In this document: positions 1 through 48,349 of the stretch, piece by piece
Layout of the letters: the number at the start of each line of letters is the position of its first letter
Position numbering within the stretch: the first letter of the stretch is position 1
Assembly (NCBI GenBank): GCA_033060915.1
Contig: CM065397.1
Coordinates: forward strand, 35,232,501-35,296,500
DNA length: 64,000 nt
Source: Euryodendron excelsum
Taxonomy: Eukaryota; Streptophyta; Magnoliopsida; Ericales; Pentaphylacaceae
Direction of reading: 5' to 3'
The notes under the pieces: model-generated
What the model was told of the DNA's origin: nothing
The model's database searches: none
The model's input: the letters and a program-made list of their open reading frames with translations, nothing else
Translations under genes and position numbers: made by a program

Positions 1-2115
1 CTTGGAAAGATTGGGTTTAGGAAAGATTCAAATTTAGGAAAGGTCCGATTTAGGAAAGTTTCGAATTAGGAAAGTTTCATTTTTGGAAAATTCCGAATTA
101 AGAAAGTTTTAAATTAGGAAAGTTTTCAAAATAGGAGAGTTTCGAAATTAAGAAAGTTTTGAAATTAAGAAAGTTTTCAAATTAGGAGAGTTTTGAATTT
201 GGAAAGTTTTGAAATAGGGAAGTTTTGAAATTTGGAAAGATTTGAAATAGGGAAGTTTTGAAATTTGGAAAGATTTGAAAACAAGGAAGTTTTGAAATTA
301 GGAAAGGTTTGAGTTTAGAAAATGTTTGAAAACTTAGATTTGAAAAGTTAAGATTTGAAAAGAGGGTAGAATTAGAAAAGGGTTGAATTAGGAAAGATTT
401 GAAAGTTGAGTTTTAAAGTTTAGGAAAGATTTTTATGCTCAAGTTTTGGAAACTTAAGATTTAGGAAAGTAAAAGATTAGGAAGGAGTTGAATTAGGAAA
501 GAGTTGGATTTTGAAATTTAAGGAAAGATTTAAAGTTTAGGTTTAGGAAACTTATGGTTTAGGAAAGAATTGAATTAAGAAAGGTTTGGATTAGAAAGGG
601 ATTGAATTTGGTTTCTAAAAGCAAAGGTTTGATTTTGTTTCCAAAAACAGAGGATTGGATTCGGTTTCCTAAACGAGAATATTTGATTTGATTTCCTAAA
701 AGGAAGATAGGATTTGGAAAGGGAGATTCTAGAAACCCTAGATTTGGAAAATTATAGTTTCGATGTAAAAAATAGGTTTTGGAAACATGTATAATTTGGA
801 TGTGAAAACAAGAGGTTTTGGAAACCTAGGTTTGGAGGCAAAATTTGAAAACCATGTTTTTTGAAAGAAAATTAGAGTTTCCTAATCGTTGGCTCTAGGG
901 CTTGACTTGGGCTTTAAGGAAAGGGATTTTTGGAAGGTGTGTTTTTGGGAAACGAAAGTTTTTGGAAGAGAATCCTAAGGAGGAGCTTCTGGAAGGAAAA
1001 TTTTGGAAAGAGAGTTTTTTTAGAAAGATTTTTGGAAGGAAATTGTTGGAGAGAGTTTTTAGGAAAGTGAATTTAGGGAGAAAGAGTTTTTAGAAAGGAG
1101 TTGAAAAAGGAAGTTTTGAAAAATAGATTTTAGAGGGAGTTTTTAAAAATAACTTTCGAAAGAAGAGTTTTTGGGAGGTATGTTGAAAAAGAAGATTTTT
1201 AGAAAGAGATTTTTGAAAAGAGAGTTTTTGGAAGGTGTAAAAACATCTCACTTTCCTAAAACAATTCTAACCATAAGAGGACTAGAACCACTTTAGGAAA
1301 GTGGTTTTGAAAACAACAAGATTTGAAAATATGGACCATATTGGTCGCTTTTAATGTAACACTTTCCTAAAGCAACCCTAGCCATGGAAAAGCTAGAATC
1401 ACCATAGGATTGTGATTTTGAAAACATGTTTTGAAAAAGAGATTTTGATGCAATTTTGAAAACGAGTTTGAAAACGATTTTAAAGATAACTTTGAAAACG
1501 GTTTTTGGAAGATGCAAGATCATGATATGCACAATGCAATTTTGGGGTCGTGAACATACAAGGTTAAGGCTTCACCACATAATCAAGGGGGCCGGACCCA
1601 CGTGGTCTCTAGTTAGACTAGAAGAAAGCCCCCGACACGGTGACTCTCCAATAGCCCAATCCTACACATGGACCAGGAATCCCCTTGTTTCAAGCATGCA
1701 AAGAAAGGGGGGGAAAGAGATGGAGGATTAAAATAGAGAAAACCCAAGTGGGTTAGGAGAGAGAAGAGAGAGGGGGGAAGTACGGAAATTTAAATGGAGA
1801 ACCTACCGTATATCTTGTTTATTTTGCGCGCCGTGCTGTCTTCGGTCTTCGTCTTGATCTTTGTCTTCAATCTTCAAGAGTTGTCTTCAAGCTTTAGATT
1901 GCAGCTCTTCAAGTCTTCAGAGGAGGGTTGAAGGCTAGTGTATGAGTGTATGGGGGTGTGTATGAGTGTATAGGAGGCTAGGGTTTAATGTATGGTGGCT
2001 AGGGTTTGGGAAACCTAGGGAAGCTAGGGTTTTGGGAGTGTTCTAGCTCTGTGTATTGAAATATAGGATTTTTAAACTGAGTTTACGCATCCCTTTCACG
2101 TTGGAAGAGGCTCTT

Positions 2116-2905: not shown

Positions 2906-3185
2906 CCGGTGTGGTTCCCGAGGTGTTCGGATGCCTAGGGGTAAAATAGTCATCTTGACCGGAAAGTCTCGGAAAAGGTCCAAGGGGCAGTTTGGTCATT
3001 TTTCACTGAAGTGAGCTAACGGACACTGGTGTTGACCTGGGTTTTGAGTGTTTCTGCCACTCTGACGGCGGTCGTCGTGACACAGGGGTTTGTTGGCAAT
3101 TCCCTATATCGACCTATTTGTGAGTATTTCCGCTACTCTAACGATTGTGATGTTTGCAAATATTTTTGCGACTTAGACCGTCTCC

Positions 3186-3870: not shown

Positions 3871-4052
3871 ACAATGCCCCTAAGGGCATTTTGGTCATTT
3901 TGCCTCTATTTGGGCCTGGCGGGCCCGTGAGGCAATGGACAGGCGAGATTTGGACTTAGAAAGTTGTTTTTATTAGAATATGCCCACAATGACTTGAACA
4001 CAAGTCTGGACGAAGTGTAGATTGCCGTGCGGTCAAAAATGGGGTGCTTACA

Positions 4053-5005
4053 ATTCACACAAAGTGTACTAGTGCAAGGAGTTGGAACTATACCGTTCCC
4101 CATAGTCAAGACAGACCTATTAAAACCTTGTACTACAGTCCTACTGATGGTGTGTCCATTTCCATCTAAGACTGTGAATGATAAATTTATATTCCATAAG
4201 AACTATTGATCTGATCTTCCGTGTGTAAGTCTTACTTTACACACCAAATCATCTATTATATAGAATAAAAGACACACATGCATAATCATTAAATGAATAA
4301 CACAATGCAAACATTTCTTGCACAGATTCTCATTAAAATGGAATAACTAATTTATTAATAAATACTAAAGCCATTACACAAAGCATGTCTTTTAGTACAA
4401 ATTCCCAACAAAGGTTGGGGGTCACTAATGCTTCCTCAAAAACTTGGTTCTCGGATCTTCAAATCTAGCCCCACTCCCCGAGGTGGTACCCTTATCGGTT
4501 GGTGATCCGAGCAGGGAAACTATCAAGAGGCTATAGGCTAAGAACTGACACAGCATCCACCCACAACCAATATATAATTCCCCCTTTTAACTACAAGGGT
4601 AGTAATACACAAATGAATGACATGCAAGTGAAGTGTGTGAGATTTTTTGAAAGTAGAGGAAATGGCCCAAAAACTCACATTCATCCTGCTCATTCATGCC
4701 ATACATGGTAGTTAATATGACATAAAATAAAATGTGAACAAGGATCCACCTATAAAAAAAATGCACAGATGATATGCATTTGTGAAAAACCCAATGCCTT
4801 TATGAAAAACCCAATGCAAATATAAATGAATAATAGGTGTAACAACATAAGATGATATGCATGGATGCAAGTGATGGCATCGTTTGAAAATATTTTGAAA
4901 AATTGGATGAAATTGGACAAGAGAACCAGAAATTCAGGGTGAGTAAGGGGTGAAGAGACATGGCAATGGCCTAACCCTCTAAGTGTCCCCAACAGAGTAA
5001 ACAGC
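4053..5005. other. Inter-element stretch with a possible copia-like LTR fragment
   Basis: No gene is seen. The - strand from 4419 leftwards reads TGTTGGGAATTTGTACTAAA, a plausible start of a Ty1/copia-type LTR whose other end would lie beyond the L5-1 insertion. The rest (about 4470-5005) is AT-rich with short imperfect repeats such as AAAACCCAATGC near 4786 and 4807. It has no primer-binding site after 4052 and no polypurine tract before 5006, so it does not look like the internal region of an element bounded by L5-1 and L5-2. Confidence 0.3.
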
Positions 5006-8000
5006 TGTCGTGCCCTAGTTTTTCGGCCCTGAGTCTGGGTCTTGACTCGAGTTCTAGTAAAACCTAATACTTTTGTTGTTAGAACTTACCATCCCAAGAG
5101 GACAAGTGTGACAGAGTTTGAACTTGAAACTGATTTGATTAAGGGCTCTTGGGAAAAGGTTTAGAGTCACCACCTAACTTTTGATAAAGGTGTGTTAAGT
5201 CACCCAAAGCTAAGTAAAATTTGAAGACTAAACTTATGGTTTTTGAAAAGGTTTTAGAAAACTTCCTCAAGAGAGGGTTTTGTGAAAAAATAGGTTGGTT
5301 GGCAACCTCCAGAGAATGTTTAAGCCCTTTTTAGAAAATGATTCCATTATGGTCTTTGAAAATAGTAATTCTAGGTTCGGAGGTTGGTTACGTGTAGGAA
5401 AGATGACCGAAGAATATCACCCTACCCCACCTTTGCTATACCTATTTGTCCTATCACCCTATATTCATTCACTTAAATCTCCAATGCCTAATTGTCTGCT
5501 AATGTCCGATTTTAAAAGATTTCAAGAAAGAGATTTTGTCATCACTTTTGGAATGAATAATACATGTTGCAAGTTGAAAAGAATTCTAAAAGGAATTGGG
5601 GTTGGATTTTGAAAAGGGGTTATGACCGCACCTATGAAGGTTGCCTACATATCTCATTTTGATGAGAAACAGGTCAGTCATAGTTTGGCTTCAGGGTCCG
5701 ATTGAATATAGGCACATTAGGGCCTTTGAAAAGTATTGAAAACTTATTGAGGCCTTGCTTTGAAAAAGAGAACTAGACAATTTTTTACTTGAAAACTTGA
5801 GATAACTCGAGAGAGTTTCGACTTGAAACTGGATTTTGAAGTGTTTTTAAAATAGAACTTGAAGGTTTTGAAATGTTTTTTTAACATAATTCAAGAGAGT
5901 TTTCAAAGTTTTGGAAACTGGACCACAGATTTGAAAAATGGGATTTTGACTTATAAAAACTCTTGTGAACTTGTGTTGAAAAGGTCTTTGAAAATCGTTT
6001 TGAAAAAGTTTAGGGTTTAACCCCCTTAATATGAACCATATAGGTTGCATTTAATGTATCACCTTCCTTAGGGAATCCTAACCATGAGGGGCGAGGATTA
6101 CCTTAGGGTTGTAAGTTTTAAAAGTATTTTTGGAGGAAGGTTTTGAAAAGATCTTTGAAAAAGGGCCTAAGCATTGAAGTCTTGAAGCTACTTAACCTTG
6201 GTTAGGCGAACTAGGGTTAGGTTGACCTATGGTTAGGAGTACAAGGGCATAGGTAACCTATGGTTTAGGTATCCTAGGGTTTTGAGTTGACTTGAGATGT
6301 AAGTAACCTAGGGTTTAGGAAAGATCTTGAAATAGAAAAGAGTTGGTTCGATGTAATATGGAAAGATATGATTTTTAGTTGGAAGAGGAAAGTTTTATTT
6401 TTGGAGAGTTTTGTACAAGGAAAGTTTTGGAAAGAAAAGTTTTATTTTAGAAAAGTTTTGAAAAAGGAAAGTTTCATTTTAGGAAAGTTTTGATTTTGTT
6501 TCTAAAGATAGATGATTGGATTTTGTTTCCAAAGATGGAAGATTTGATTTTGAGTTGAAAAAGGAAGGATTGATTTTGTTTCCAAAATGGGACGAATTTG
6601 ATTTTATTTCCAATAAAAGAAGATTGGATTTGGTTTCCAAAAATAGAGAGATTTGAATCGAAAAACGGAAGATTTGATTTGAAAAAGGTAAGATTTGTAT
6701 TGAAAATTTTATGATTTTAAGTGTGACTTTTGGAAAACAACTAAAGTGAGTTATGCAATTTCTGAAAACATGATGTGATAATGATTTGAAAAATGTTTTA
6801 ATGCAATGATTGCAAGAATGAAGGTTAGGGATAAAACTAGAGTTTCCTAGAACATGAGTTTCTAGGGTTTTGACCTTAATTTCAAAACAACAACACTTGG
6901 ACTAATTTTGAGAAAAGGCCTTTGAATATAAGATTTGAAGAGGTTTGAAAACTAAATTTTGAAAGACACATTTAATGTGGCCTTTGGAGGCTTCTTTGAA
7001 TGTGCAACTTTCCTAAAGCGACCCTAACCATAGAAAGGCTAGAATCACTTTAGGGTTGTGACTTTGAAAACAAGCTAGGGTTTTGAAACCCTAATGTGGA
7101 CCTGGGTGGTCAATTTGAATATGTCACTTTTCTAGGGAGACACTAACTATGAGAAGGTTAGAATCACCTTAGGGAGGTGAGTTTGAAAATAAAACAGTTA
7201 TAAACAATGCATGAACATGATAATAATAATCCAATTGGGACATGAACATACAAGATCGAAGGGTTTCATCACATTACAAGGGGCCTTAAGACCATACCAT
7301 GGTTGGTTAGGCTAAAGGAAAACCCCCAACACGATGGTTTCCCCAAAGCTTCCCCTAGGCATGGACCAAAGGTCCTCGTGTTTCAAGAATGCAAGAAGAG
7401 GGGGTAAAAGATAGGGATTAAAATAGAAAATAGCCCAAGTGGACTAGGAGGAATAAGAAAGGGGGAGAGCATAAACTTCAAAAGAAACCCTACCTTGTCT
7501 TCTTGTTAGCTTGGATGCTTCAATGGAGGACTTTCCTGAACCTTGAAGTAGCCTTCAAGAGCTTCCAAGGGCTGGACTTGGTCTTCAATGAAATAAGGAA
7601 GCTAGGGTTTTAGTGTTTAAGGCTAGAGGGGCTAAGGTTTCTTGACCTAGAATACACTAGGGGATGGTTTGTATTTATAGGCCAAAGTTGAGGAGGAGTG
7701 GTGCCACCTTGGAATGGCAATGATTCTGAAGATTTTATTCGAATTGGGCAGCAAGGCAAAGATTTGGGCGCCACTCTTAGTGGCTCCAAGCCATTTTTTG
7801 GCTTGGCTCCAATATAAGTGCTCGATTTGATCTAGGAAGCTACTGGGCTACGGGGCCCAACTAGAAAAGAGATGGGGGTACTCAGGAATGACCCGGGGGT
7901 TGCCAGTTTGATACCTAAAGCTGGAGTGGTTGAAAAGGGTAACCAGCCCGCTAGGGGCAAAACGGTTATTTTGACTTGGGTTCACCGAAATGGTCCTGGA

Positions 8001-11277: not shown

Positions 11278-13389
11278 TGTAAGCACCCCATTTTTACCCA
11301 CTCGATAATCTTCGGCTTGACCGGATTCACATTCAAACTGATACAGACACATTCAAGCCCAAACCGGCTTTCCAGATTCAATCCAATCAATCAACTGTTT
11401 TACGGGCCTGCCAAGCCCAATAGAAGCAAAATGACCAAAGTGCCCTTAGGGCGTTGCTCGATCCATTTCCAGTTGGCACGTCTTCTTAAAGGTGGTAAGT
11501 CCCTATTTCAACCTCAATTCCAATCCACGTCAATCAAACTCAATCCAACCTGTCTTGCGAGAAAGTTAATTCCTCATACGGTAAATTCATCCAACATGGT
11601 CTGTTTACCAAGAAAACTCCTCGGAATGGTAAGTTCCTGCAAACTAGTCGACCGGGACAAAACCTAAGTTCTTGATATAGTAGAGCGGTCCACTTCTGAC
11701 GCCTGCTAGCCCGCCAATATAGAATGTCCGCTATTCGTCACGTCCATCGGGAAAGTACCTAAGGCCCCAAGACGATAAGACCATCCAGTAGCTTCCCAAG
11801 ATCAAGAAATCTCTAGAATGAACGACACCATCAGAGTGACAGAAACACTCACAAACATCACAACCGTCAAAATGGAAGCACTCACAAACAGGTCGACATC
11901 TAGTATACCAACAAACTCCCTATGTCACGAGACTGAACACACCTCTTCACCATGACACGTTTACCAAAGGATGGGATATCTTTGGAAACTAACTCATCAC
12001 ACACCATCAGAGTGGCAGAAACACTCAAAACCCGAGTCAAAACTAGTGCCTGCTTCTAGTGAAAATGACCAAACTGCCCCTTGGGCCCTACCGACACGCT
12101 TCTCGAGAAAGTACCTAAGACCTCAAAGCGGTAAGTCCACCCTTCCAGGATTATCCCAAAGACAATTCAGCATGTTCAAGTGCCTTTCAGTCAGTTCTGA
12201 ATCAATTTCAAGGCCATCTGGTTAAAATGACCATTTTGCCCCTAAGCATCTAATTGCCTCTAAGAACCACACCGGCTCTGGCTATCAAATCGGCGATCTT
12301 CTAGGCATGCTTGTAGCAGTATTCCCAATCTTCTAGTACCCTTCTAGATCATTTCGAGTCCATTTTGGTAAACCCAGTACAAAATGACCGTTTTGCCCTC
12401 AATAAGTTGTTCACATTTTTCAACCACACTGACTCCCGTTGTCGATTCAGTTACCTTCAGGACACTCTTTAGGATTTTTGTCCATCCCCGGCCTTCTAGA
12501 TCATTCTTGGACTTTTCAAAGTCACTCCTAATGGAGTTAGGCTAAAAATTGTATGGTAGTTGTCGCGCCTAGATTTTTTGCACTCGAGGAATACACACAC
12601 AAGCGAGAAAAATACTGTACTCTCTCATAAGAACTCTTCCTCCTAGAAAAATGAGTACGACTAGATTTGAATTAAAAATTGGTTTGAATAAAGGGCTTTT
12701 GAAAAAATTTTGGAGTCGCCACCTAACTTGATTAAGGTGAGTTAGGTCACTTAAAAACTAAGCATAATCCGAAAACTACACCTAGGGTTTTGGAAAAGGT
12801 TTTGGAAAAGGTTTTTGAAAATACCACCTCAAGAGAGGGTTTTTAGGAAAACAGGTTGTTTGGCAACCTTTGGAAAACATTTAAACCCTTTTTGAAAAAT
12901 AACTCCTTTTGGTCTTTCGAAAACAGTGATCTAAGTTCGGAGGTTGGTTACGTGTAGGGAAGACACACTAAGCCAGCACCCTACCCCGCCCTTGCGGTAC
13001 CTACATGTCTATTTATCCTGGATTCATCTATGAGAGTCTTCAACTAACTAATGTTCAATCCTATCAACTTTGAAAGAGAATGTTTAAAAAGACAAGATGC
13101 ATGATATGCAAGTGTAAGATAAGAGAGTTGAAAAATAGATTTGGAAAAAGATTTGAAAAGAAGAATTTGATTTGATTTTAGAAGAGAGATTTGAAAGGAT
13201 AGATTTGAAATTGGAAAGTTTTAGAAATTGAAAATAGAAATTTGGAATTGGAAGTTTGAAAATAGAATGGAGATTTGAAAAGATTTTGTGGAAATAGAAA
13301 CTTGAAAAATGTTGTGACAGCACCCAGGAGGGTTGCCTACGTATCCTTTTGGAGGAATCAAGTTAGTCATAGTTCGGACAAGAGTCCGA

Positions 13390-15030
13390 TAGAAGATAGA
13401 AGGTTGGATTGGAAGAAAGAGATTTTGATTGGAAAAAGGATTTGATTTGAATTTAGAATAGAAGATAGGAAATTGGAATTTAGAATTTTGAAATCGAAAA
13501 GATTGGACTTTGATTTGAAAAGATAGAACTTGGAAGAAAGATTTAGACTTGTTTTGGAAAGATTGAGGTTTAGGAAACCTAGACTAAGGAAAGAGAAGAG
13601 ACTTAGGAAAGATTTGACTTGGAAGGGTTTTAAGAAAATATTTGACTCGAATGCTGGACTTGGAAGATTTGGAAAGATTGGATTTAGGAAATGGTCAAAT
13701 TAGGAAAGGTCCCTTTTAGGGAAGTGTCACTTTCGGAAGGTTCCGTTTTAGAAAAGTTTTGGTTTATGGAAGTTTCGAATTACGAAAGTGTCATTTTTGG
13801 AAAGTTTCGCTTTAGAAAAGTTTCAATTTAGGAAAGTGTTCGAATTGGGAAAGTTTTCATTTTAGGAAAAGTTTTGAAATTAGGAAGTTTTGAAAATTGG
13901 AAAGTTTAGAATTTGGAATGTTTTGAAATAGGAAAGTTTTGAAAGTGAGAAAGTTTTGAGTTTAGAAAATTTTAGATTTGGGAAGATTTGAAGTTTAGGA
14001 AAGTTTAGAGTTTTAGAAAGATTTAGGAAGTTTAAAAAGATTTAACTTAAGAAAGTTTTGAATTTATAAAGCTTTGAATTTAGAAAGATTTGAAATTTAG
14101 AAAGTTTAAGATTTAGAAAGTTTTAGAGTTTTAGAAAATCTTGAGATTAGGAAAGGTTTAAGTTTAGGATAGATTTAAAAACTTAGATTTGGAAAGTTAA
14201 GATTTGAAAAGGGATAGAATTAGGAAAGATGTGGAAGTTGAGTTTTAAAATTTAGGAAAGATTTTTATATTCAAGTTTTGGAAACTTAAGATTTAGGAAA
14301 GTAGAAGATTAGGAAGGAATTGAATTAGGAAAGATTTGGATTTGGAAGGATTGAGATTCCTATTTCCTAAAACAAAGGATTAGATTTTGTTTCTAAAAGA
14401 GAGGGCTTGATTTTGTTTCCAAAAACGGAGGATAGGATCTAGTTTCCTAAAAGGGAGATTGGATTTGGTTTCCTAATGGGAAGATTGGATTTGACAAGGA
14501 TTTGGAAAGGAAGATTTTAGAAACCCTAGATTTGGAAAACTAAAGTTTTGGCGTAGAAAATAGGTTTTTTAAAAACTTATGATTTTGATGTAGAAAACAG
14601 GGAATTTTGAAAACCTAGGTTTGGGGCAAGGTTGAAAATCACGTTTTTGGGAAGGAAAATTAGGGTTTCCTAATCATGAGTTCTAGGGCTTGACTTCGAC
14701 ACCAAGAAAAGGGATTTTTTTGGAAAGTGAGTTTTTTGGAAGGAGATTTTAGGGAAGAAATCCTAGGGAGGAATTTCTAGAAGGTGAGTTTTGAAGGGAG
14801 AGTTTTTGGAAAGATTTTTAAAAGGAGATTGTTGGAAAGAGATTTATGAAGCATTTTTAGGAAAGGAATTTTGCAGAGAGTGTTTTGGAAAGGAGTTGAA
14901 AAGAGAGTTTTTGAAAAATAAATTTTTGAAGGGAGTTTTTAAAAACAACTTTAAAAAGAAGAGTTTTAGGAAAGCATGTTGAAAAAGAGATTTTTAGGAA
15001 GAGACTTTTGAAAAAAGAGTTTTTAGAAAG
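13390..15030 (-). repeat. Purine-rich micro-repeat of the L5 R-U5 region (L5-4)
   Basis: Over 1.6 kb is built from irregular ~15-20-base repeats of the form TTAGGAAAGTTTTGAAA on +, hence TTTCCTAA / TTTCAAAAC on the sense strand. Equivalent blocks are at 1-1230, 5700-6730, 33240-34080 and 45940-47400 (purines on +), and 18760-19830, 22600-24240 and 37800-39490 (pyrimidines on +). L5-9 keeps only about 43,380-43,640. Open frames in these blocks are low-complexity artefacts. Confidence 0.85.
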
Positions 15031-15047
15031 TATAAAAATGTCTCACT

Positions 15048-15217
15048 TACTAAAGCGATTCTAACCATAAGAAGGTTAGAACCACTTTAAGAAAGTGGTT
15101 TTCAAAACAACAAGGAGTTGAAAGTATAGACCATATCAATCACTTTAAATGTAACACTTTCCTAAAGCGATCCTAGCCATGGAAAGGCTAGAATCACCCT
15201 AGGATTGTGATTTTGAA
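15048..15217 (-). repeat. Paired hairpin modules of the L5 LTR (L5-4)
   Basis: Two modules each form a two-tier hairpin. The inner stems are CTAACC/GGTTAG (15061-15066 with 15074-15079) and CTAGCC/GGCTAG (15173-15178 with 15186-15191), each around a 7-base loop (ATAAGAA, ATGGAAA). Outer arms of the CACTTTCCTAAAG / CTTTAGGAAAGTG type flank them. Modules recur in every copy, two to four per LTR, about 100-120 bases apart. Confidence 0.7.
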
Positions 15218-15930
15218 AACAAGTTTTGAAAAAGGAGATTTTGATGCAATTTTGAAAACAAGTTTAATGCAAGCTTTGAAAACGAGTTTGAAAATGATTT
15301 TTGAAATAATGCAAGATAATGATATACACAATGCAAATTGGGGGGTCATGAACATACAAGATTAAGGCTTCACCACATAATCAAGGGGGCCGAACCCACG
15401 TAGTCTCCGGTTAGATTAAAAGAAAGCACCCGACACGGTGACCCTCTAATAGTCTAATCCTACACATGGACCGGGAATCCCCTTGTTTCAAGCATGCAAA
15501 GAAATGGGGGGAAAGAGAAGGGGGATTAAAATAGAGAAAACCCAAGTGGGTTAGGAGAGAGAAGAGAGAGGGGGGAAGTGCAGAAACTTAAAGAGAAAAC
15601 CTACCGTATGTCTTGTTTATTTCGCTTGGCTTTGCGCACCTTGCTCTTCTTGCTTTTTCTTCGGTCTTCGCTTCAGTCTTCGAAGGCTTTGTCTTGGTAT
15701 TCAAAGCTTCAAGTTGCAGCAATCCAAGTCTTCAATGGAGGGTTGGAGGCTAGTGTATATGTGTATAAGGGTGTATGTGAGTGTATAGGAGGCTAGGGTT
15801 TGGTGTATGGTGGCTAGGGTTGGAAAACCTAGAGAAGCTAGGGTTTAGGGAGGCTTCGAGCTCTGTATATTGAATTTTAGGGTTTTTTAGACTGAGTTTT
15901 CGGACCTCCCTCACGCTGGAGGAGGCTCTG

Positions 15931-15938
15931 TATTTATA
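15931..15938 (-). promoter_or_regulatory. LTR TATA box (L5-4)
   Basis: TATAAATA on - in the context CTATAAATACAGAGCC, the strongest TATA context in the family. It is followed downstream on - by the conserved donor-like GTAGG near 15600. Confidence 0.6.
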
Positions 15939-17214
15939 GACATGAGATAGACCTGGCACCTGTTACAATGGTGCCAAGCCAAATTACCTCTTGGTGCCAC
16001 TAAGAGTGGTGCCAGGCCATTTCTTGGCTTGGCGCCACTGCTAGTGGTGTCAGCCAGTTAGGAAACTTTGTAAGTCAGCAAATAACATATCTTGGTAAGA
16101 TTTGGGCACCTGTACTAGTGACTACCGTGCAATTTTTAGCCTAGCTTCACTAAGAGTGACTCCGAAAAGTCCGGGAAGGATTTAAGGGACTGGGATTGGC
16201 CCAGAAGGCTGGAAAAGGACAAGAACACTTAGAATAGTGTCCCAGACGTATTTGACTTGAGAAATGAGAATAGGATGTGTCGGAGGGGTTGACCGGGCAA
16301 TTAGGGGCAAAACGGTCAACCGGGCCAAAAAACTGCCTAGATGGACTTGGAACTTCTTGGAAGAATATTCGAGATTTGGAAACATTATTCAGAATGTTCC
16401 CAAAGGTTTCCGGTTTGATAGCCAGAGCCGATGTGGTTGGAAAAGGTGGCCAGCCCACCAGGGGCAAAATGGTCATTTCACACCGAATTTGCCGGAACTG
16501 ACTCGAAATAATCCAGAAAGATAAAGAAATATTGAGAATACTATAGGAAGCATTCTCAGGATGTTACCGGTTTGATACCCAGAGCCGGTGTGGTTCTCAG
16601 GGCATTCGGATGCCTAGGGGCAAAATGGTCATCTTGACCGAAAAGTCTCGGAATTTACCCGAAATGGACTGGAGGGCACCTAATCATGTCGGATTAATTT
16701 TAAGACAATCTAGAAAGGTGGACTTGTCGTTCTAAGGGCTTAGGTGTGCTCTCGAGAAACGTGTCGAAAAATGGCCCTAGGGGCAGTTTGGTTATTTTTC
16801 ACCAGAGTGAGCTAGCAGGCACCGGTGTTGACCTGGGTTTTGAGTGTTTCCGCACTCTGATGGTGGTCTCATGATACAGGGGTTTGTTGGCAATTCCCCA
16901 TGTCGACTTGTTTACGAGTATTTTCACTACTCTGACGGTTCGCGATCATTCCCGAGACTGCCTGATTTCGGGAAGCTACTAAAGGGACTTAGCGCCTGAG
17001 AATCAATTTTCTAGGAAGGCGTGCCTAAACAGACATTTCTGCATTGGCAGGCTAGCAGGCGCCAAAAGTGGACCGTTCTACCATCTAGGGACTTGGGGTC
17101 TCGTCCCGGTCGACAGGTTTAAAGGGACTTACCGTCCCGAATAGATTTTCTTCGAAAAACGTGTTGGACCGTCTCGAGGAATCAATTTTCTTGAGAGAGG
17201 GATTGGAATTAGAA

Positions 17215-17462
17215 TTGGAAAGGAGACTTACCGTCTTCGGAAAGACGCGCCTGGTTTGAAAATGGAAAGGGGACTTACCGTCTTCAAAAAGACGCGCCTG
17301 GTTTGGAATTGGAATGGGGACTTACCGTCTTCAGAAAGACGCGCCTGATTTAGAATTTGAAAAGGGGACTTACCGTCTTTGGAAAGACGTGCCTGATTTG
17401 GAATTTGGAAAGGAGACTTACCATCTTCAGAAAGACGTGCCTAATTTAGATTTGGAAAGGAA
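17215..17462 (-). repeat. ~47-bp U3 tandem array in L5-4
   Basis: About five units. GGGGACTTACCGTCTTC or a variant recurs near 17222, 17270, 17316, 17364 and 17412. Each unit contains a 6-bp hairpin around AGACG with a variable 4-base loop (CGGA, CAAA, CAGA, TGGA). It occupies the position of the 81-bp array of L5-1. Confidence 0.8.
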
Positions 17463-17815
17463 CAATGCCCCTAAGGGCATTTTGGTCATTTCGCCTCTGT
17501 TTGGGCCTGGCGGGGCCCACGAAATGATGAATAGACAGGATTAAACTTAGAGAGCTGATTTCGATTGGAATACGCCCATATTGACTTAAGTACAAGTGTG
17601 GACGGACCGTAAACTGCCGAGCGGTCAAAAATGGGGTGCTCACAGTAGTCACAAGGACAGGCACCCAAATCTTCTGCCTTGCATCCTAAGGGTCAAAAGA
17701 TCTGTTTCTTGCCACCTCAAAACTTTCCTAAGTGGTTGGTGCCACTAGTAGTGATGTCAAGCCAAAAACTGGCCTCGCGCCACTACAACAAGCATTAGAG
17801 CCAATTCCAATTGCC

Positions 17816-17823: not shown

Positions 17824-20273
17824 CAAACCACACCTACGTAAAAAGTATCCGCAAACTCAATCCAAAAACGCTACCTCACTGAAAAAAGGCTTTGAAACCC
17901 TAGTTCTCTCAAGCCTCCTTCAAACCCTAGCCTCCATACACACAAACCCTAGCCTCTATACTCTCTCTGCACTTAAATGCAATCTTCCAAGCATCCATTG
18001 AAGATCAAGTGTTGAGTATTCAAAGCTCTCAAGTCAAAGCAAGCAAAGCAATCAAAGCCAAGAAAAGACAAGGTAGGTTTTTAATTTAGTTTATGCAATC
18101 CCTCTCTCTCTTTTCTTTGTCCTAACCCACTTGGGTTTTTTTCGATTTTAATCCCCATCTTCTACCATCCTTTCTTGCATGCTTGAAACAAGGGACTTTC
18201 CGGTTCATGCCTAGGAAGACTTACTAAGGGTCACAGTGTTGGAGGCTTTCTTCAAGTTAAACCTAAGATGGTGTGGGTTTGGCCCCCTTGATTATATGGT
18301 GAAGCCTAAACCTTGTATGTTCACGACTCTTTTGCATTGTGGTTGTCATGTTCATGCATTGCATTCAAAGTTGTTTTCAAACTTACATCAAAGTTCTTAT
18401 TCAAAACTTGCATTCAAAACCTCCTTCTTTCAAACTTGTTTTCAAAACCACAACCCTAAGAAGATTCTAATTATTCCATGACTATGGTTGCTTTAGGAAT
18501 GTGTTATATTTAAAGTGACCATCAAAGTCCAAAAGTTTAGGTTCAAACCCTAAATTATTTTTCAATAAATCACAATTCTATAGTGATTCTAGCCATTTCA
18601 TAGCTAGGGTTACTTTAGAAAAATTTTACATTCAATGGGATCGTCAAGGTCCAAATCTTGTTTTTAAACCCTAATTGTTTTCAAAATCACAACCCTAGAA
18701 TGGTGCTAATCCTTTCATGGTTAGAATCGTTTTAGATAAGTGAAATATTCAAGAGACTTACAAAATTTTATATTCAAACCTTTCCAAAATAGTTTTTGCA
18801 AATCCACTTCCTAAAAATCTCTTTTTAAAAGATCTACCTTTCAAAAACTCTTTTTCTTGAAGTTCAAGTCAAAACCTAAAATCCATGATTAGGAAACCCT
18901 AATTCCTCTCTTAAAATCATGACTTTATATTTGCATCAAATTACAACTTTCCAAAACCTTTTTCTACAAAAAATCATAGATTTTCAAAACTAAAATTTTC
19001 TAATTTCTAGTCGAATAAAATCTTGTCCAAATAGGAAACTAAATCAAATCTTCCAATTTTGGAAACTAAATCAAATCCTCTATTTTTTGAAATAAAATCC
19101 AATATTCAATTTTAGGAAATAGAGATCAAACATTTCCTAATTTCAAACTTTCAAATCTTTCTAAATTCAAATCTTCCTAAATCATATCTTTCCAAAATCA
19201 AGTCTTTCCGAAAATGCAAACTTTCCTAATAATGTACCTTCCAAATTCAAAGATTTCCTAAGTTCAAGCTTTCCAAATTCTGACATTCCAAATTTTTCCA
19301 AATGAAATATTTCCAAATCAAGTCAAATCTTTTCAAGTTAAGTGTTTCTAAATCAATCAAATAATTTCCTAATCTTTCTTAAATCCAACTTTCCTAAGTC
19401 GAAACTTTTAAAAAATAGAACTTTCCTGGTTTGATACTTTCGTAATCGAAATTTCTAAAATCAGACTTTTTATAATCAAAGTTTTCAAGTTCAAATCAAG
19501 TCCTTCTAATTCAATTGCATGCTTCGAACCCTAGGTTATCAAAACCCTAGGAGGCCAAAATCCTAGTTCAACCGTAACCCTAAGTTAGAAAACTTCAATT
19601 CCCTTCTAAACCAAGATGGCTTCAAACTCTAATTCAAGTCAAGATGATTTCAAAATTCAATTCAAATTTTCCTAAATAAGTCTAAGTTCTACTTCAAAGT
19701 TCGATTTTAAATCAAAGTCGATTTCAAATCAAAGTTCAATTTCAAAACTTTCAATCAAAATTCAAATCAAATTCTTTTCAAATCAAACTTTATAAAGGCC
19801 TCAAAGTGTCTTTTCAAATTAAACAAGACTCTAAAGTGTCTATTTTTCCCAGCCTCAAAATTAATCTCTCTTCAAATTCTTTTATTGCACTTGTATATCA
19901 TGCATCACCTCATCCAAAGGTGATGGCTCAAATCTCTTTCTAAAATTCTTTTCAAAGTGGATAGTATTGAACATTTGTTAATCGATAATTCTAAATAAGT
20001 GAACATAGCATAGAGAGATATATAGGTACTATAAGGGCGGGATAGGGTGATAGCTTAGTGTATCTTCCCTATATATAACCAACCCTCGGACCATAGATCA
20101 CTATTTTTGAGAGACCAAAACCGTAGTCATTTTTTAAAAAGGCTTTAAATCTTTCCAAAGATTTCCAAACAACCTGTTTTTTCCAAAAACCCTCTCTAAA
20201 TAAATTTTTCCAAAACCTTTTCAAAAATTCTAAGTTTAATCTTTGGATTACACTTAATTTTGGGTGACCTAAC

Positions 20274-23200
20274 TATAAGCACCCCATTTTTGCCCGCTTG
20301 GTAGTTTTCAGTCCATCCAGACTTGTATTCAAATCAATATGGACATATTCCAATTTAAATTGGTTTTTCAAATATAATCTAGTCAATCAATCGCTTCGTG
20401 AGCCCATAGGGCTCAATAGACGCAAAATGACCAAAGTGCCCCTTGGGGCATCATTCAGTCCAATTCTGGTGGGCATGTCTTTTCGAAGACAGTAAATCCC
20501 CATTTTTCCAATACCAAGTCCAATTCCAATTCCAATTCCAATTCCAATTAAATTCAGCACGCCTTTCGAGATAGTTAATTTCTCAAGGTAGTAAGTCCAT
20601 CCTGTCCGGCACATTTTTCGAGAGAACTCTTCGGAACAGTAAGTCCCTTCAAACCTGTTAACCGGGACAAGACCCCAAGTCCTCTAGATGGTAGAACGCT
20701 CCACCTTGGGCACCTACTAGCTCGCCAATGAAGAAATGTCTGTTTCGGCACACCTTCTGACAAAGTTGATTCCTCAAGCGCTAACTTCACCTAGCAGCTT
20801 CTCGAGATTAGGTAGTCTCGGGAATGATCGCGACCCGTTAGAGTAACGAAAATACTTATAAACATCGCAACCGTCAGAGTGGCGAAAACACTCGCAAACA
20901 GGTCGATATAGGGAATTACCAACAAACCCCTATGTCAAAGGACCGACGTCAGAGTGACAGAAACACTCAAAACCCAGGTCAACACCAGTGCTTGTTGGGG
21001 CCATTTTCGGCACGTTTCTCAATAAAGTACCTAAGTCTTCAGAACAGTAAGTCCACCCTTTCAAGATTGTCTTAAAGATAATTTGGCATGATTAGGTGCC
21101 TTCCAGTCAGTTTCGAGCCAATTTCGAGACATTCCGGTCAAGATAACCATTTTGTCCCTAAACATCTAAGCGCCCTAGGAACCACACCAGCTCTAGGTAT
21201 TAAACCGGTAACCTCCCAGAGATGTTTCTGATAGTATCCCTAGCCTTCCGATACATTTTTGGATCATTCTAAGTCAATTCTAGTAAGCCCTGTGCAAAAT
21301 GACCATTTTGCCCCTAACGGGCCGTTTTTTTTTCTAACCACACCGGCTCTGGGTATCAAACCGATAGCCTCATGGAATATTCTATCTAATGTTTCCAAGC
21401 TTCCAGTCTCCTTCCGGGATATTCCGAGTCCATCCCGGTAGCTTTCCTGCTCGATTGAACGTTTTGCCCTTAATGGCCCGTTGAACCCATCCGTCACATC
21501 TTGACATCATTTTTCAAGTCTACTACCCTCGAGTCACTATTCCAAGGATTCTTGTCCCTTTTCGGCCCTTCAGGCCATTCCCAGACCTTCCAAAGTCACT
21601 CCTAGTGAAGCAAGGCTAAAAATTGCATGGTAGTTACTAGTACAGGCGCCCAAATCTTCTGAAGATACGTTGCTTGCCGACCTTAAAACTTTCCTAAGTG
21701 GTATAAATACAGAGCCTCCTCCAGCATGAAAGATGTCTGCAAACTCAGTCTAAAAACTCTCTTCTTTGATACATAGGGCTCGTAGCCTCCCAAAACCCTA
21801 GTCTTCTTTAGGTATTCCAAACCCTAGCCCCCATACACTAAATCCTAATATACATACACTCCCATACACTCACATACACCCTTATGCACTCCTATACTAG
21901 TCTCCAAAGCCAACATTGAAGACTTAAAGTGTTGCAACTCTGAAGTTCCCGAAGATCTAAGCAAGCTCTCAAAGATCGACGCAAAGCAAAGTGAAGATCG
22001 AAGTAAAGAAAGCAAACCGTGCAAACAAATAAAAGAAGACACAAGGTAGGCTTTCTATTTAAGTTTACGCAACTTCTCCCCCCTCTTCTCTCTCCTAACT
22101 CACTTGGGTTTTCTTCTATTTTAATCCCCCATCTTTTACCCCCCCTTTCTTGCATGCTTGAAACAAGGGACTCTCCGGCTCATGTGTAGGATTAGGCTAT
22201 TGAAAGTCACCGTGTCCGGGCTTTCTCTTAGTCTAATCGAAGACAACGTGGGTTCGGGCCCCTTAATTATGTGGTAAAGCCTTTAACCTTATGTGTTCAC
22301 GACCCCAACTTGTATTATGTATATCATGATCATGCATCTCTCCAAAATTCGTTTTTAAACTTACATCAAAACCGTTTTCAAAACTTGCATTAAAATTTTC
22401 TTCTTCAAAACTTATTTTTCAAAATCATAATCCCAAGGTAATTGTAGCCTTTTCATGGTTAGGGTTGCTTTAGGAAAGTGTTACATTTAAAGTGACCAAT
22501 ATGGTCCATATTTTCAAATCCTTGTTGTTTTCAAAACCACAATCCTAGAATGGTTCTAATCTTATTATGGTAAGAATCGCTTTAGTAAAGTGAGGTATTT
22601 TTAGTGGCTTGCAAAAGTCCACATTCAAATCCTTTTTAAATCCCTTTTTAAATCTCTTTTTGAACTTACTTTCCAAAAACCTCTTTTTAAAATCTCCTCC
22701 AAAATTTGTTTTTACATCTACTTTCTAAAATCTCTTCCTCAATATATTTTCCAAAAAAACTAACTCCAATATGCTTTCCAAAATTATTTTCTAAAGATTC
22801 CCTTCAAAAACTTAACTTCCTAAAAACTGATTTCCAAAAAACTCTCTTTTCAAATTCACTTTCTAAAAACTTCTTTCTAAGATTTCCTTCCAAAAATCTC
22901 CCTTTCTAAAAACTCACTTTCCAAAAATCTCTTTCCTTAGAGCCCAAGTCAAGCCCTAGAGCCAACGATTAGGAAACCCTAATTTTTCTTCCTAAAACAT
23001 GATTACTTCAAAACCTAGATTTCCAAAACCTCCTTTTTTCATCAAAATCATAAATTTTCAAAAACATATTTCCTACATCAAACTATAGCATTTCAAATCT
23101 AGGATTTCCAAAACTCCACTTCATCTTTCCAATTCCGTGTAAAATCAAATCTTCCCTTTAGGAAACCAAATCCAATCTCCCCATTTAGGAAACCAAATTC

Positions 23201-32948: not shown

Positions 32949-35150
32949 CCATTTTGATTTTTGAAAATAGTGATTCTAGGTTCGGAGGTTGGTTACGTGT
33001 AGGGAAGATGACCAAAGACTATCACCCTGCCATGCCCTTGCGGCACCTACATATCTATTCACCCTTGGGTTCACTCACTTGAATTTTCGGTTCCTAATTG
33101 TCCATTTGTGTTCACTTAACAAGATTTTGAAAAGAGACATTTGAGTTTGAAAAGGGGTTATGACCGCACCTATGAAGATTGCCTACATATCTTGTTTGGT
33201 GAGAATTAGGTCAGTGGTAGTTCGAACTCAGGGCCTGATTAAAAAGAGACTCGTGGGAGTCTTGGAATGTTTTGAAACTTGAATGCAAGAGAGTTTTGAT
33301 TTGAAATTCAATGTTGGATTGTTTTTGAAGTAAAACTTGAAGGTTTTGGCAGTGATTTTGAAATAGGATTGAACATAACTCAAGAGAGTTTTGGAAGTTT
33401 TGGAAATTCAAAGGAGTAAGAGGCTTTTGAAAACACATTTTGAAAAGATCATTTGAATTGAAAAGATTATTTTGAAAGAAGGTTTAGAGTTAGAGTCTTG
33501 AAGCCATCTAACCTTGGTTAAGATAAACTAGGGTTCAACGACCTAGGGTTAGATTAACCCAGGGTTAGGCTAACTAGGGTTGGATGACCTAGGGTTAGGT
33601 TGACCTAAGGTTGGATCTTTATGGTTGGACCACTAGGGTTGGAAGTGACTTGGGACACAAGTAACCTAGGGTTTAAGAAGGATGCCTTGAAATAGAAAAG
33701 ATTTGATTTGATGCAATATGGAAAGGTATGATTTTTAGTTGAAAAAGAAAAGTTTTACTTGTGAAAAGTTTTTAAAAATGAAAGTTTTATTTTATGAAAG
33801 TTTTGAAAAAGGAAAGTTTCATTTTAGGAAAGTTTCAATTTTGTTTCCAAAAATAGAGGATTGGATTTTGTTTCTAAAAATAGAATATTTGATTTGGTTT
33901 CCAAAATGGAAAGATTTGATTTGGTTTCCAAAAAGAAAATATTTGATTTGTTTTCATAATGGAAAGATTTGATTTGGTTTTCAAAATGGTAAGATTTGAT
34001 TTGGCTTCCAAAATGAAAAGATTTGATTTAAAAAAGGAAATATTTGAATTGAAAATATTATGATTTTATATGTGAATTTTTCATATTTTGGTTCGAAAAT
34101 CTATAAGTTTATATGACACTTTTTGAAAACAACTCAAGAAAGTTATGCACTTTTTGAAAATATGATGCAACAAAGACTTGGAAAACCATTTTGATCCAAT
34201 GAATACTAGGATGCAAGAATGAAGTTTAGGGGACAAGATGAGACTTTCTAAGACATGGATTTCTAGGGCTTGAAGAGAACAACTCTTGGACCAATTTTGG
34301 AAATAAGTGTTTGAACATGGAATTTATAGAGGTTTGAAAAGAGATAACAAAATACAGTTTTGAAAGAGGTGTTTTAGGGTTTAAAACCCTAATGTGGCCT
34401 TTGAATGTCTCCTTGAATATGCAACTTTCCTAAAGTGTCCCTAACCATGGAAAGGCCAAAATCACTTTAGGGTTGTGATTTTGAAAACAAGTTAGGATTG
34501 AAACCCTAATGTGGACCTTGGTGGTCACTTTGAATATATCACTTTCCTAGGGAAATCCTAACTATGAGGAGGTTAGAATCACCCTAGGGTTGTGAGTTTG
34601 AAAATAAGAACAATGTATGAACATAACAAATATAATGCATAGGGCTCATAAACATACAAGGTATAAGGTTTCACCACATTGCAAGGGGCTTTAAGACCAT
34701 ACCGTGATTGGTTAGGCTAAAGGAAGACCCCCGACATGGTGATCTCCCCAAAGCTTCTCCTAGGCATGGACCTAATGTCCTCTTGTTTCAAGTATGCAAG
34801 AAGAGGAGGTTTGGAGATGGGGATTGAAATAGAAGAATAATCCAAGTGGACTAGGAGGGAGAACAGAGAGAAAGGGATTGCAGAAAGTAAATAGAACCCT
34901 ACCTTGTCTTCTTGTTAACTTGAATGTTTCAATGGAGGACTTGCTTGAACCTTGCAATGGCATTCAAGAGCTTCTAAAGGCTTGTCTTGATCTTCGATGG
35001 AGTGAAAAAGCTAGGGTTTCAGTGTTTAGGGCTAGAGGGGGGCTAGAGCTTTTGAGAGAATTAGGGTTTTGAGGAATCTTGGGGGCTGCAAAAAGTTTGG
35101 TAAAACTTTGTTGTGATTTTTTGGACCTAAAATATGTTGGGGGTGGTCTG

Positions 35151-35883: not shown

Positions 35884-38800
35884 TGTAAGCACCCCATTTT
35901 TTCTCGCTCGGCGATCTCCAGTCCGACCAAGCTCACTTTCGAACATCACATGCACATTCAGACTCCAACCTACCCTTTAAACTCTAATCCAGTCCACGGG
36001 TCACTTTTTGGGCTCGTCAAACCTGCTGGAAGCTAAATGACTAAAATGCCCTTAAGGCATCATCCCAGTCTAATTTAATCTGGCACGCTTATTGAAAAAT
36101 GCCTAGGACTTTAGAGCGGTAAGCTCACCCTTCCAAGGTTGTCCCAGAGATAATCTAGCACGTTCTCATGCCTTCCAATCGCTTCCGTATCAATTCCAAG
36201 AGCATCCGATCAAAATGACCATTTTGTTCCTAAGCATCTAATCATCTCTAGGAACCATACTGGCTCTGGGTATCAAATTGGTTACCTTCCAGGAATGCTT
36301 ATAATAGTATTCCCAACCTTTCCGAACCATTCCGAGTCCATTCCAAATAAACTCGGTGTGGAATGACCGTTTTGCCCCTATCAGGCCGGCCAACCTTTTC
36401 AACTATTCTAGTATTATTTCTCAAGTAAGTTACCTCTAAGACACTTTCTCGAGGGTTCTCATCCATTTTTGGCCAAGTCTAGTTACTTGGAATCTTCCAG
36501 ATCATTCCCGAACTTTCTAGAGTCACTCCTAGTGGAGTCAAGCCAAAAATTTCATGATATTCAGTATGGCAAGCGCCCAAATCTTTTGCCTTGCATATCA
36601 AGGGTCGAAAGATACGTTTCTTTCCACCTTAAAACTTTCCTAAGTGACTGGCGCCACTCCTAGTAATGCCAGTGTATTTTTTGCCCTGGTGCCACTGCAA
36701 CAGGCACTAAGGCTATTTTGGTTATCTATAAATACAGACCCTCCTCCACGTAAAAAAGGTCTGCAAACACAGTCCAAAAGCTCTGTCTCTCGAAATTTAG
36801 AGCTTGAAGTCTCTCCAAACCCTAGCCCTCTCAAGCCTCTTCAAGCCTTAGCCTCCATACACTCAAACCCTAACCTCTATACACCTTCTATACTCAAACA
36901 CAAGCTTCCAAAGCATCCATTGAAGACTTAAGTTCTGCAACTTCGAAGCTCTCAAGGCTCAAGGTTCAAGCAAGCAAAGCAAACAAAGAAAGCAAAGCAA
37001 GAAGAAGACAAGATAGGCTTTCGATTTACTTTTATGCAATCCCCCCCCCCCATCTCTTCCCTCTCCTAACTCATTTAGGTTTTCTTTTATTTTAATCCCT
37101 ATCTTGTACCTCACTTTCTTGCATGCTTGAAACAAAGGACTCCTCGGTCTATGCCTAGAAAGAATTGTTGAAGGTCACCGTGCTGGGGGCTTTCTTCAAA
37201 TTCAACCTTTGATGGTGTGGGTTCGGCCCCCTTGATTATGTGGTGAAGCCTAGCCTTAAATGTTCACAACCCTTTTTGCATTGTGTATATAATATTCATA
37301 CATTTATTCAAATTTATTTTCAAACTTGCATCAAAACTCTCTTTCAAAACTTGCACTCAAAATCTTTTTTTTCAAACTTATTTTTCAAAATCACAATCGT
37401 GAAGTGATTCTAACCATTTCATAGTTAGGGTTGTTTTAGGAAAGTGTTATATTCGATGTGACTTTCAAGGTCCAAATTTTTTGGTGTAAACCCTAATTTG
37501 TTTTTATCAAAACCACAATCTTAAGATGATTCTAGCCATTTCATGGTTAGAGTTATTTTAGGAAAGTGTTATATTCGATGTGACTTTTAATGTCCAAATT
37601 TTTTGGCATATACCCTCATTTGTTTTTATCAAAACCACAATCTTAAGATGATTCAAGCCATTCCATGGTTAGGGTTGTCTTAGGAAAGTGTGATATTTAA
37701 TGGGATCATTATAGTCCATATTTCAAATCTTTGTTGTTTCAAAATCACAACTCTAGAATGGTTCTAATCTTCTTATGATTAGAGTCTTTTTAGAAAAGTG
37801 AGATATTTGTAAAAATCCATATTCAAACCTCATTCCAAGTTGTTTTACAAATCTCTTTCCTAAAAACTCTTTTCAAATCTACTTTCAAAAAACTCCTTTC
37901 AAACTCTTTCTTGAAAACTCTTCTCAAAAATTTATTTTCTAAAAAGTTTTTTTAAAGATCTCCTTTCCAAAAGCTTTTTTTCTTGGAGTCCAAGTCAAGC
38001 CCTAGAATCCATGGTTAGGAAATCCTAGTTCTCTTTCTTAAAATCATGACTTCCTATTTTGTTTCAAACCATAGGTTTTCAAAACTATTTTCTACATCAA
38101 ATCTTAGATATCCAAAATCTCTTTTTCTATACCAAATCATAGACTTTCAAATCCAGGATTTTCAAAATTAAACCTTTCCAAGTCCATGTCAAATCAAATC
38201 TTTCAACTTAGGAAACCAAATCAAATCTCCCAATTTTGGAAACAAAATCAAATCATCTATTTTTGAAAATAAAATCTAATCTTCAACTGTAGGAAATAGC
38301 AATCGAATTTTTCCTAATTCTAATCTTTCCTAATTCAAGTCTTTCCTAATCCAAACTTTTTTTAACTTTCCTAATCCAAACCTTTCAACCTTTCTTAATT
38401 TCAACTCCTTCTAATTTCAAACTTTCCAACCCTTCCTAATTTCAAACCTTTCCAAATCTCAACTTTCTAAACTCAACTTGTCAAATCTTTCAAATCTTTG
38501 CAAAACCAACTCTTTCCTAAATTGAAAACTTTCATAAAATAAAACTTTCTTAATTTGACATTTTCCTAAAATGAAAACTTTCTTAAAATGAAACTTTTTT
38601 AATTTGACATTTTCCTAAATGAAAACTTTCTTATTTTGAAACTTTCCTAATTCAAAACTTTTCAAAATCCAATCTTTCTTAAATTCGAACTTTCTAAATT
38701 CATTCAAATCAAATAATCAAGTCAAATCTTTGTAATTCTTTCCAAGTCAAGTGTTTTTAAAATCAAATCAAGTCTCTTCCAATCTATTTTAAAACTCATT

Positions 38801-44561: not shown

Positions 44562-44569
44562 TATTTATA
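44562..44569 (-). promoter_or_regulatory. LTR TATA box (L5-9)
   Basis: TATAAATA on - within CTATAAATACAGAGCC, matching L5-4. Confidence 0.6.
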
Positions 44570-47500: not shown

Positions 47501-48349
47501 CCAATATGATCGCATTAAATATCATACTTTCCTAAAACAACCCCAACTATAGAACAGCTAGAATCATATTAAAATTGTGGTTTTGATGAAAAAAAAAGTT
47601 AGGATTTACACCCAAAATATGGACCTTGATGGGCACAATGAATATAACACTTTTCTAAAGCAACCCTAACCATGGAATTGGCTAGAATCACTCTAGGAAT
47701 GTGGTTTTGAAAACAATAGTTTGAATGTAAATTTTGAAATATGATTTTGATTCAAACTTTGAAAATAACTTTTGAAAACAATTTTGAAGAGATGTATGAA
47801 TATGATATGCACAATGCAAGTAAGGTCGTGAACATACAAGGTTGGCTTCACCACATAATCAAGGGGGCCAAATCCATATGGTCTAAGGTTGAATTAGAAG
47901 AAAGCTCCCGACACAGTGACTTTCAATAATCTTTCCTATACATGAATCAGGGATTCCCTTGCTCCAAGCATGCAAGAAAGGGTGGGAAAAGATAGGGGAT
48001 TAAAATAGAAGAAAACCCAAGTGGGTTAGGAGGAAGAAGAGAAGGGGGAGTACATAAACATAAAGAGAGAGCCTACCTTGTTTTCTTCGTGTTTTTTTGC
48101 TTTGTTTGCTTTACTTTGCTTGATTCTTGAGAGCTTTCAAGTTACAGCACTTTGGGTCTTCAATGAAGGCTTTGAAGGCTTATGTATAAGTATATGAAGT
48201 GTGTATAGATGTTAGGGTTAAGTGTATGGTGGCTAGGGTTTGAAGAGCCCAGAGAGACTATGGTTTTGGAGAGATTCGACCTCCGTAATTTGAAAAGCAA
48301 AGTTTCTAGACTGAGTTTGTAGACCTTTTTCACACAGGGGGAGACTCTG

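Follow-up and report, generated by a model that had tools for sequence, protein, structure and literature searches.

Short palindromic modules that recur within the LTRs of a retrotransposon in Euryodendron excelsum very probably represent RNA hairpins that fold on the sense strand of the element and are under selection for pairing. Comparison of module sequences supports the structure itself, its strand, and its preservation despite changes of letters. As a best overall explanation, to which we give about an even chance, we propose that these modules act in cis as leader RNA hairpins that select unspliced genomic RNA for packaging. The original prediction was that the modules represent either a structured RNA or a cruciform under selection; the data presented here favor RNA, on the strand opposite to the one initially read, and disfavor a cruciform since extruded DNA would constrain both strands alike while the excess of G-U pairs in the inner stem is one-sided.

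Hairpin modules and the LTRs that carry them

An iterated profile search, seeded with the two module copies of the interval 15048-15217, was run on both strands of the 64-kb window (i.e., the whole stretch of DNA that was analyzed, 64,000 nucleotides) and yielded 46 profile matches, which represent 23 modules that were each matched on both strands (Table 1). Each module is a near-palindrome of about 55 bp with 24-base arms and a central loop; an arm 17-mer occurs 15 times in the window when as many as 3 mismatches are allowed, as compared to 0.10 expected. While a module of about 55 bases had been predicted to recur two to four times in each copy, this holds for nine arrays (one of four, two of three, and six of two modules, with start-to-start spacing of 110-123 bp) and fails for one module, at about 6064, which is located outside any array. 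Similarly, the loop length of 7, described as constant, applies to 21 of 23 modules, with one loop of 6 and one of 8 bases. The arms initially quoted were all found as described, including the inner arms CTAACC/GGTTAG (15061), CTAGCC/GGCTAG (15173), and CTAATC/GATTAG (47432), the outer arms CCTAAAG/CTTTAGG (7012 and 7048) and CCTAGGG/CCCTAGG (34546 and 34582), an outer arm that pairs without interruption over 12 bp (1249-1260 to 1292-1303), and a CTAACC/GACTAG mismatch in the copy designated L5-1. Modules were assigned to classes A (n = 7), B (n = 13), and C (n = 3) by position and letters. On the sense strand, as defined below, the loop ends in AU in all 23 window modules and four pyrimidines precede this AU in 22 of them, a pattern that would fit a protein-binding loop. 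In one LTR copy, whose array includes four modules, a 122-bp unit that contains a hairpin module is repeated 2.6 times in tandem (37381-37697).

Table 1. Hairpin modules and associated LTR features in the window
Feature	Position	Strand	Basis
Hairpin module	1249..1303	-	profile search
Hairpin module	1360..1414	-	profile search
Hairpin module, class C, lone, more stable on antisense	6060..6114	-	profile search, folding
Hairpin module	7006..7060	-	profile search
Hairpin module, class C, more stable on antisense	7125..7179	-	profile search, folding
Hairpin module, class A, outer arm one base short	15044..15097	-	profile search, arm pairing
Hairpin module, class B, 55 nt	15155..15209	-	profile search, folding
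Hairpin module	18449..18503	+	profile search
Hairpin module	18571..18625	+	profile search
Hairpin module	18688..18742	+	profile search
Hairpin module	22426..22480	+	profile search
Hairpin module	22538..22592	+	profile search
Hairpin module	34423..34477	-	profile search
Hairpin module, class C	34540..34594	-	profile search, classification
Hairpin module	37392..37446	+	profile search
Hairpin module, long unbroken sense helix in RNAfold model	37514..37568	+	profile search, RNAfold
Hairpin module	37636..37690	+	profile search
Hairpin module	37746..37800	+	profile search
Hairpin module	43672..43726	-	profile search
Hairpin module	43784..43838	-	profile search
Hairpin module	47414..47468	-	profile search
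Hairpin module	47525..47579	-	profile search
Hairpin module, 8-base loop	47648..47702	-	profile search
Solo LTR with modules 15044-15209, TG...CA ends, TSD GTAGT	12561..17644	sense -	copy comparison, end inspection
TATA box CTATAAATA	15931..15939	-	TATAAA at one alignment column, 7/7 LTR copies
Predicted splice-donor-like ACG/GTAGG (cut at slash)	15600..15607	-	string match
Degenerate PBS-like stretch by LTR sense 3' end (~5006)	4985..5003	-	alignment to three loci, several differences

Terminal sequences, TSDs, and PBS-like and PPT-like junctions indicate that the modules belong to the LTR of an LTR retrotransposon. Perfect 5-bp TSDs flank three LTR copies (GTAGT at 12556/17645, ATGAT at 42600/45912, and GTTAG at 24782/20269), the ends of which are TG...CA in two copies and TG...TA in one, and a fourth, interrupted copy shows the TSD ACGCA/ATGCA. 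Local matches between LTR copies are mostly about 71-85% identical, and several old LTR subfamilies are thus present. One LTR copy (42097-50026) is interrupted by another (42605-45911; TSD ATGAT), and a further copy at 20274-24781 appears nested. With regard to orientation, TATAAATA is found at one alignment column, on the reverse strand, in 7 of 7 LTR copies in the window, while the opposite strand of the aligned window copies shows no TATAAA recurring in three or more copies. Among loci fetched from the genome, a PBS-like start close to TGGCGAYTCCACTGGGGA (with differences of one or two bases in two of three loci) follows 3 of 21 sense-3' LTR ends (loci L021, L023, and L025), and a PPT-like purine run precedes 2 of 22 sense-5' LTR ends (L011 and L024); the two types of junction never occurred together in one fetched locus, and the remaining LTR ends have other flanks, as solo LTRs would show. 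Based on the TATA box and these PBS-like and PPT-like junctions, the sense strand of the LTR is the reverse of the strand on which the module at 15048 was initially read. An initial guess of an initiator-Met tRNA PBS, found in 20 places, was rejected; among 8 of these places that were fetched (L029-L036) only L034 was similar to the LTR, and that PBS is absent from the LTR end of L034 itself. No reverse transcriptase or gag-pol domain was detected in 10 open frames tested out of 24 listed from three internal regions; the element may belong to a Ty3/gypsy (Tat/Ogre-like) lineage, a guess from LTR length and PBS.

A number of other features were observed in these LTRs and around them. Tandem arrays are found in the U3 part of one LTR copy (81-bp unit repeated 8.5 times, 3177-3865) and of another (47-bp unit repeated 5.3 times, 17209-17460). 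Just upstream of the TATA box, on the U3 side, an inverted-repeat cluster around GGCGCC/GGTGCC (15970-16065) is among the most structured plus-strand windows of its LTR (z to -6.9) and might represent a DNA-level promoter array. One of the internal regions, in locus L037, encodes a plant mobile domain (PF10536; positions 3761-4822, 38.7 bits versus a cut-off of 34.9 bits), followed by a frame with a weak match (17.2 bits); both frames run opposite to the element (antisense), and a PBS-like junction is found about 5-6 kb away. Apart from the module-bearing LTRs, the window contains an open frame with an RVT_2 domain (PF07727; 54502-55722), which we take to be the Ty1/copia type of reverse transcriptase, as well as a 158-aa open frame with a cysteine-rich start and no Pfam match (59094-59567).

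Pairing on the sense strand and tests for selection

Most of the apparent mismatches in the inner arms become G-U pairs when the modules are read on the sense strand. In cell counts that, like the genome counts below, overstate the number of independent events because module copies are related, the 23 modules, taken over their inner 18 columns (414 cells; a limit chosen after the pattern was seen), include 280 Watson-Crick, 100 sense G-U, 13 antisense G-U, and 21 other cells. Across all 24 columns, the corresponding counts are 362, 102, 23, and 64, with 1 gap; as the outer six columns (82, 2, 10, and 43, with 1 gap) show no sense bias, the bias belongs to the inner stem. Majority arms of classes A and B pair on sense in 18 of 18 columns, with 4 and 6 G-U pairs, respectively, and those of class C in 15 of 18; the three class C modules show 4 sense and 4 antisense G-U cells, and two of them fold better on antisense.

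Single 55-mers folded with a mean energy of -20.5 kcal/mol on the sense strand (z -5.1) as compared to -12.2 kcal/mol on antisense (z -2.2), with the sense fold being more stable in 21 of 23 modules; sense and antisense energies were -33.1 and -21.9 kcal/mol for the module at 15155-15209, -27.2 and -17.5 kcal/mol for the module at 15043-15097, and -65.6 and -45.5 kcal/mol for the two-module stretch (15043-15209). RNAalifold, which had been proposed for both strands, returned 17 pairs on sense and none on antisense. The two modules of the LTR at 12561-17644 account for the 4 sense windows, out of 629, with the most structure as judged by z-score. Of two modules in a second LTR (407 sense windows), one ranked at the top and the other fell outside the best 12. 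On antisense, the 3' arm (15085-15107 and equivalents) can also form another small hairpin, ACCAC/GTGGT or ATCAC/GTGAT, both sides of which, as judged by eye, differ together between some modules.

A 22-pair helix has 89.9% of its cells paired on sense and 74.3% on antisense, while versions of this helix slid along the sense strand reach at most 50.7%. Both the pairing and the covariation score (0.317) of the sense helix were reached by 0 of 500 shuffles; as the lower antisense covariation score (0.172) was likewise reached by 0 of 500, the shuffles do not single out a strand. The number of sense pairs with changes on both sides (6) was not unusual (193 of 500 shuffles were as high), nor was the count of further pair types on sense (78 of 500). 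When the modules' own arms were compared to arms dealt within classes, own arms showed more Watson-Crick cells (280 versus 267.8, sd 4.2; p = 0.003), including when sense G-U (380 versus 374.5; p = 0.011) or antisense G-U (293 versus 286.8; p = 0.005) was also counted as paired. Within-class changes, counted once, included 18 to sense and 9 to antisense G-U (p = 0.06).

Changes were also placed, by parsimony, on a tree of 114 modules, including 22 of the 23 from the window as well as modules from 45 other loci; 114 of 118 modules entered the tree, the others having insertions or gaps in the arms, and counts refer to non-CpG changes away from Watson-Crick pairs. Internal branches carry 14.5 changes to sense G-U, 6 to antisense G-U (p = 0.04), and 0.5 other changes, and terminal branches carry 50, 27, and 29, respectively; pooled over all branches and rounded, 65 changes to sense versus 33 to antisense G-U were found (p = 0.0008). 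Transversions that break Watson-Crick pairs represent 0.5 of 21 internal and 29 of 106 terminal changes (p = 0.025 with rounding to 1 of 21), and the terminal proportion (27%) resembles the 30% background (283 of 930 singletons outside modules). This pattern is as expected if active lineages guard pairing and dead copies lose it; the ratio of changes that keep pairs to changes that break them was, however, not significantly different on internal as compared to terminal branches (p = 0.10). On terminal branches, the sense bias (2:1) exceeds what pure neutral decay predicts, and part of the terminal-branch changes may predate insertion. CpG decay was examined on the module tree as a source of the G-U bias and was excluded. 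Per-site singleton rates outside modules were 0.079 for G>A and 0.068 for C>T, and mutation bias thus does not explain the excess of sense G-U since the flanking LTR shows no matching strand bias.

At the genome scale, the arm 17-mer has 5174 exact matches in the 1.06-Gb genome, with 0 for the reversed control. Pairs were counted genome-wide at column 22 only, using a pattern that fixed the neighboring stem letters as well as the type of loop; 4122 A-U, 9841 sense G-U, and 13415 G-C pairs were found along with 409 sense A-C mismatches, as compared to 2254 A-C mismatches expected with independent sides (odds ratio 13.7), so that 98.5% are paired on sense and 64.6% on antisense. Reversed-pattern controls for the four column-22 patterns each gave 0 matches in the whole genome. 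While module loci outside the window came mostly from one seed 17-mer and one contig, 48 modules free of the seed word, from 43 outside loci, showed 543 Watson-Crick, 287 sense G-U, 17 antisense G-U, and 13 other cells (96.5% paired on sense versus 65.1% on antisense). A further sample was drawn from 20 loci that were selected by a single type of inner arm and gave 31 modules, with none from two of the loci (L070 and L076); Watson-Crick, sense G-U, antisense G-U, and other cells numbered 133, 56, 7, and 17 in the outer 12 of 18 columns of the 18 chosen modules, and 149, 72, 8, and 5 in 13 neighbor modules. In L068, both sides of one pair have changed together relative to the common form. Loci L060, L061, L068, L073, and L074 carry more diverged module subfamilies with different outer arms. 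A 25-base module pattern had 0 matches in viral contigs and 0 in GTDB genome contigs.

Position in the predicted transcript and a candidate role

An exact CTATAAATA is found on sense no more than 1.5 kb upstream in 46 of 58 arrays and is lacking in the other 12; the first hairpin starts at a median of 713 nt (500-753) downstream of this TATA box. A donor-like AAG/GTAGG or ACG/GTAGG (with the cut at the slash) is found in 36 of the 46 TATA arrays (10 are without it), at a median of +322 (184-343) from the TATA box; none of the 46 has such a string on the other strand. Past the PBS-like start, an acceptor-like TACTAAC...TTTTGTAG/GT (cut at the slash), or a near form, is present in 3 of 3 genome loci at a distance of 197-216 nt, and a weaker relative is present in the window.

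We propose that the modules would act in cis as hairpins within the R-U5 leader at the 5' end of the RNA made from a long-LTR plant retrotransposon, with a sense fold typically consisting of a stem of about 18 bp, sometimes more, and a pyrimidine-rich 7-base loop, and with mostly two to four hairpins in a row, about 110-123 nt apart, starting about 0.7 kb past the TATA box. Leader splicing would use a donor located some 320 nt downstream of the TATA box and an acceptor that follows the PBS by about 200 nt; as this predicted intron, if used, removes both the hairpins and the PBS, unspliced RNA alone would keep them. The hairpins would most likely serve as a repeated binding site for a protein (Gag or a host factor) and thereby choose genomic RNA for packaging. 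Given a selected sense-RNA hairpin, we put packaging or selection of genomic RNA as its job at slightly below an even chance. The more specific model, in which the LTR carries tandem genomic-RNA identity hairpins inside a leader intron and splicing decides between messenger and genome, is tentative and, in our judgment, rather unlikely as stated.

Alternative explanations and known systems

Control of translation, with the leader hairpins acting as ribosome-shunt or re-initiation structures or as roadblocks to scanning, is an improbable alternative, although the most probable of those considered. The hairpins are located within the predicted sense-RNA leader, plant pararetroviruses use leaders that are structured and contain short upstream ORFs, according to the text considered here (PMC5902531), and 18 of 23 window modules have an AUG on sense that bridges loop and stem; on the other hand, this AUG is AUA in the remaining 5, the base at its -3 position is a pyrimidine in 22 of 23, and a spliced mRNA would lack the hairpins if the predicted intron is real. 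A mini-ORF starting at the loop AUG was considered and set aside.

A slightly less probable alternative is that the modules act at the DNA level, as an enhancer repeat or as dyads with paired half-sites to which a dimeric transcription factor binds, a role that has been proposed for palindromes in the LTRs of Sireviruses and other elements. Palindromic repeats that form arrays in LTRs have been described as cis-regulatory (PMC2829016, PMC10760457, as far as the sections consulted extend), and the outer six columns without sense bias are consistent with such dyads; the modules, however, are found downstream of the TATA box rather than in U3, and DNA dyads predict a fixed consensus on both half-sites rather than covariation along with a G-U bias on one strand. 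A shade less probable again, the hairpins could be substrates of plant Dicer-like enzymes, in which case they would be related to silencing or self-restraint and not to replication. Their stems come close to the 21-nt hairpins of maize that were termed miRNA-like; small RNAs are more abundant on LTR hairpins in that species, according to the passages available to us (PMC10760457), but in the one LTR scanned no Rfam family scored as high as its gathering threshold (best match over modules, MIR4378 with 26.1 of 90 bits; best match overall, mir-2242 with 26.5 of 70 bits), and successful subfamilies should lose a pure silencing trigger while pairing is kept in thousands of copies. Least probable is a purely mutational origin as a functionless old inverted duplication kept palindromic through template switching or gene conversion between arms, since, despite the multiplication of modules by tandem duplication (e.g., the 122-bp unit) and some changes seen on both sides, template switching restores Watson-Crick pairs and yields no one-directional G-U excess, flanking LTR sequence lacks a matching strand bias, and transversion breaks are nearly absent on internal branches.

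Leader hairpins that select genomic RNA, our preferred reading, have a counterpart in retroviruses, where psi packaging and dimerisation hairpins are located near the major splice donor. Like psi, the modules described here are leader hairpins that follow a splice donor, here a predicted one, and would thus be found in unspliced RNA only; unlike psi, they are tandem repeats within the LTR, upstream of the PBS. Among plant elements, LARDs have long LTRs. Conserved RNA structure has been claimed for LARD as well as for Cassandra/TRIM elements, which, like the element described here, are plant LTR elements; in the account of Cassandra available to us, though, the folds involve 5S RNA sequences and pairing of whole LTRs with each other (PMC7215508), and the Rfam scan of one LTR yielded no 5S match. 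In BARE1, splicing contributes to the separation of translated and packaged RNA (PMC3735527), and the element described here resembles BARE1 as a plant LTR retrotransposon in which splicing, here predicted, would help divide these two RNA pools; the BARE intron, as given in the excerpt considered, is 104 nt long and located at the end of gag, whereas the intron predicted here spans LTR and PBS (PMC3735527).

Structures of this kind were also initially thought not to be described for plant LTRs. This does not hold for palindromes in general, as LTRs of Sireviruses carry repeated palindromic motifs upstream of the TATA box (PMC2829016) and palindromic LTR motifs have been linked to small RNAs in print (PMC2829016, PMC10760457); for this particular hairpin module, we found no report in the open-licence literature. 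The Sirevirus motifs are 11-17 bp long among the table rows seen and, with the exception of one element, have a CGG-CCG core (PMC2829016). They resemble the modules in that many palindrome copies are found inside plant LTRs with divergent letters and preserved symmetry; the modules differ in being about 55 bp long, AT-rich, located downstream of the TATA box, and biased towards sense G-U, and none of the 23 in the window has a CGG-CCG core. Ty3 elements generally show no obvious peak of such structures in the portion of the maize study considered (PMC10760457). As far as seen in these sources, none of Sirevirus, BARE, and Cassandra matches the modules in position, size, and strand signature.

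If the proposed role is correct, these LTRs would carry an intra-LTR, multi-copy counterpart of retroviral psi, with tens of thousands of modules in one plant genome. Little is known about the signals that govern packaging and RNA fate in plant LTR retrotransposons, and a hairpin with genome-scale sequence support and with a defined strand and promoter distance is directly testable. These findings also caution that not every LTR palindrome should be annotated as a DNA element, and a one-sided G-U bias in imperfect-looking LTR palindromes provides a way to find further cases.
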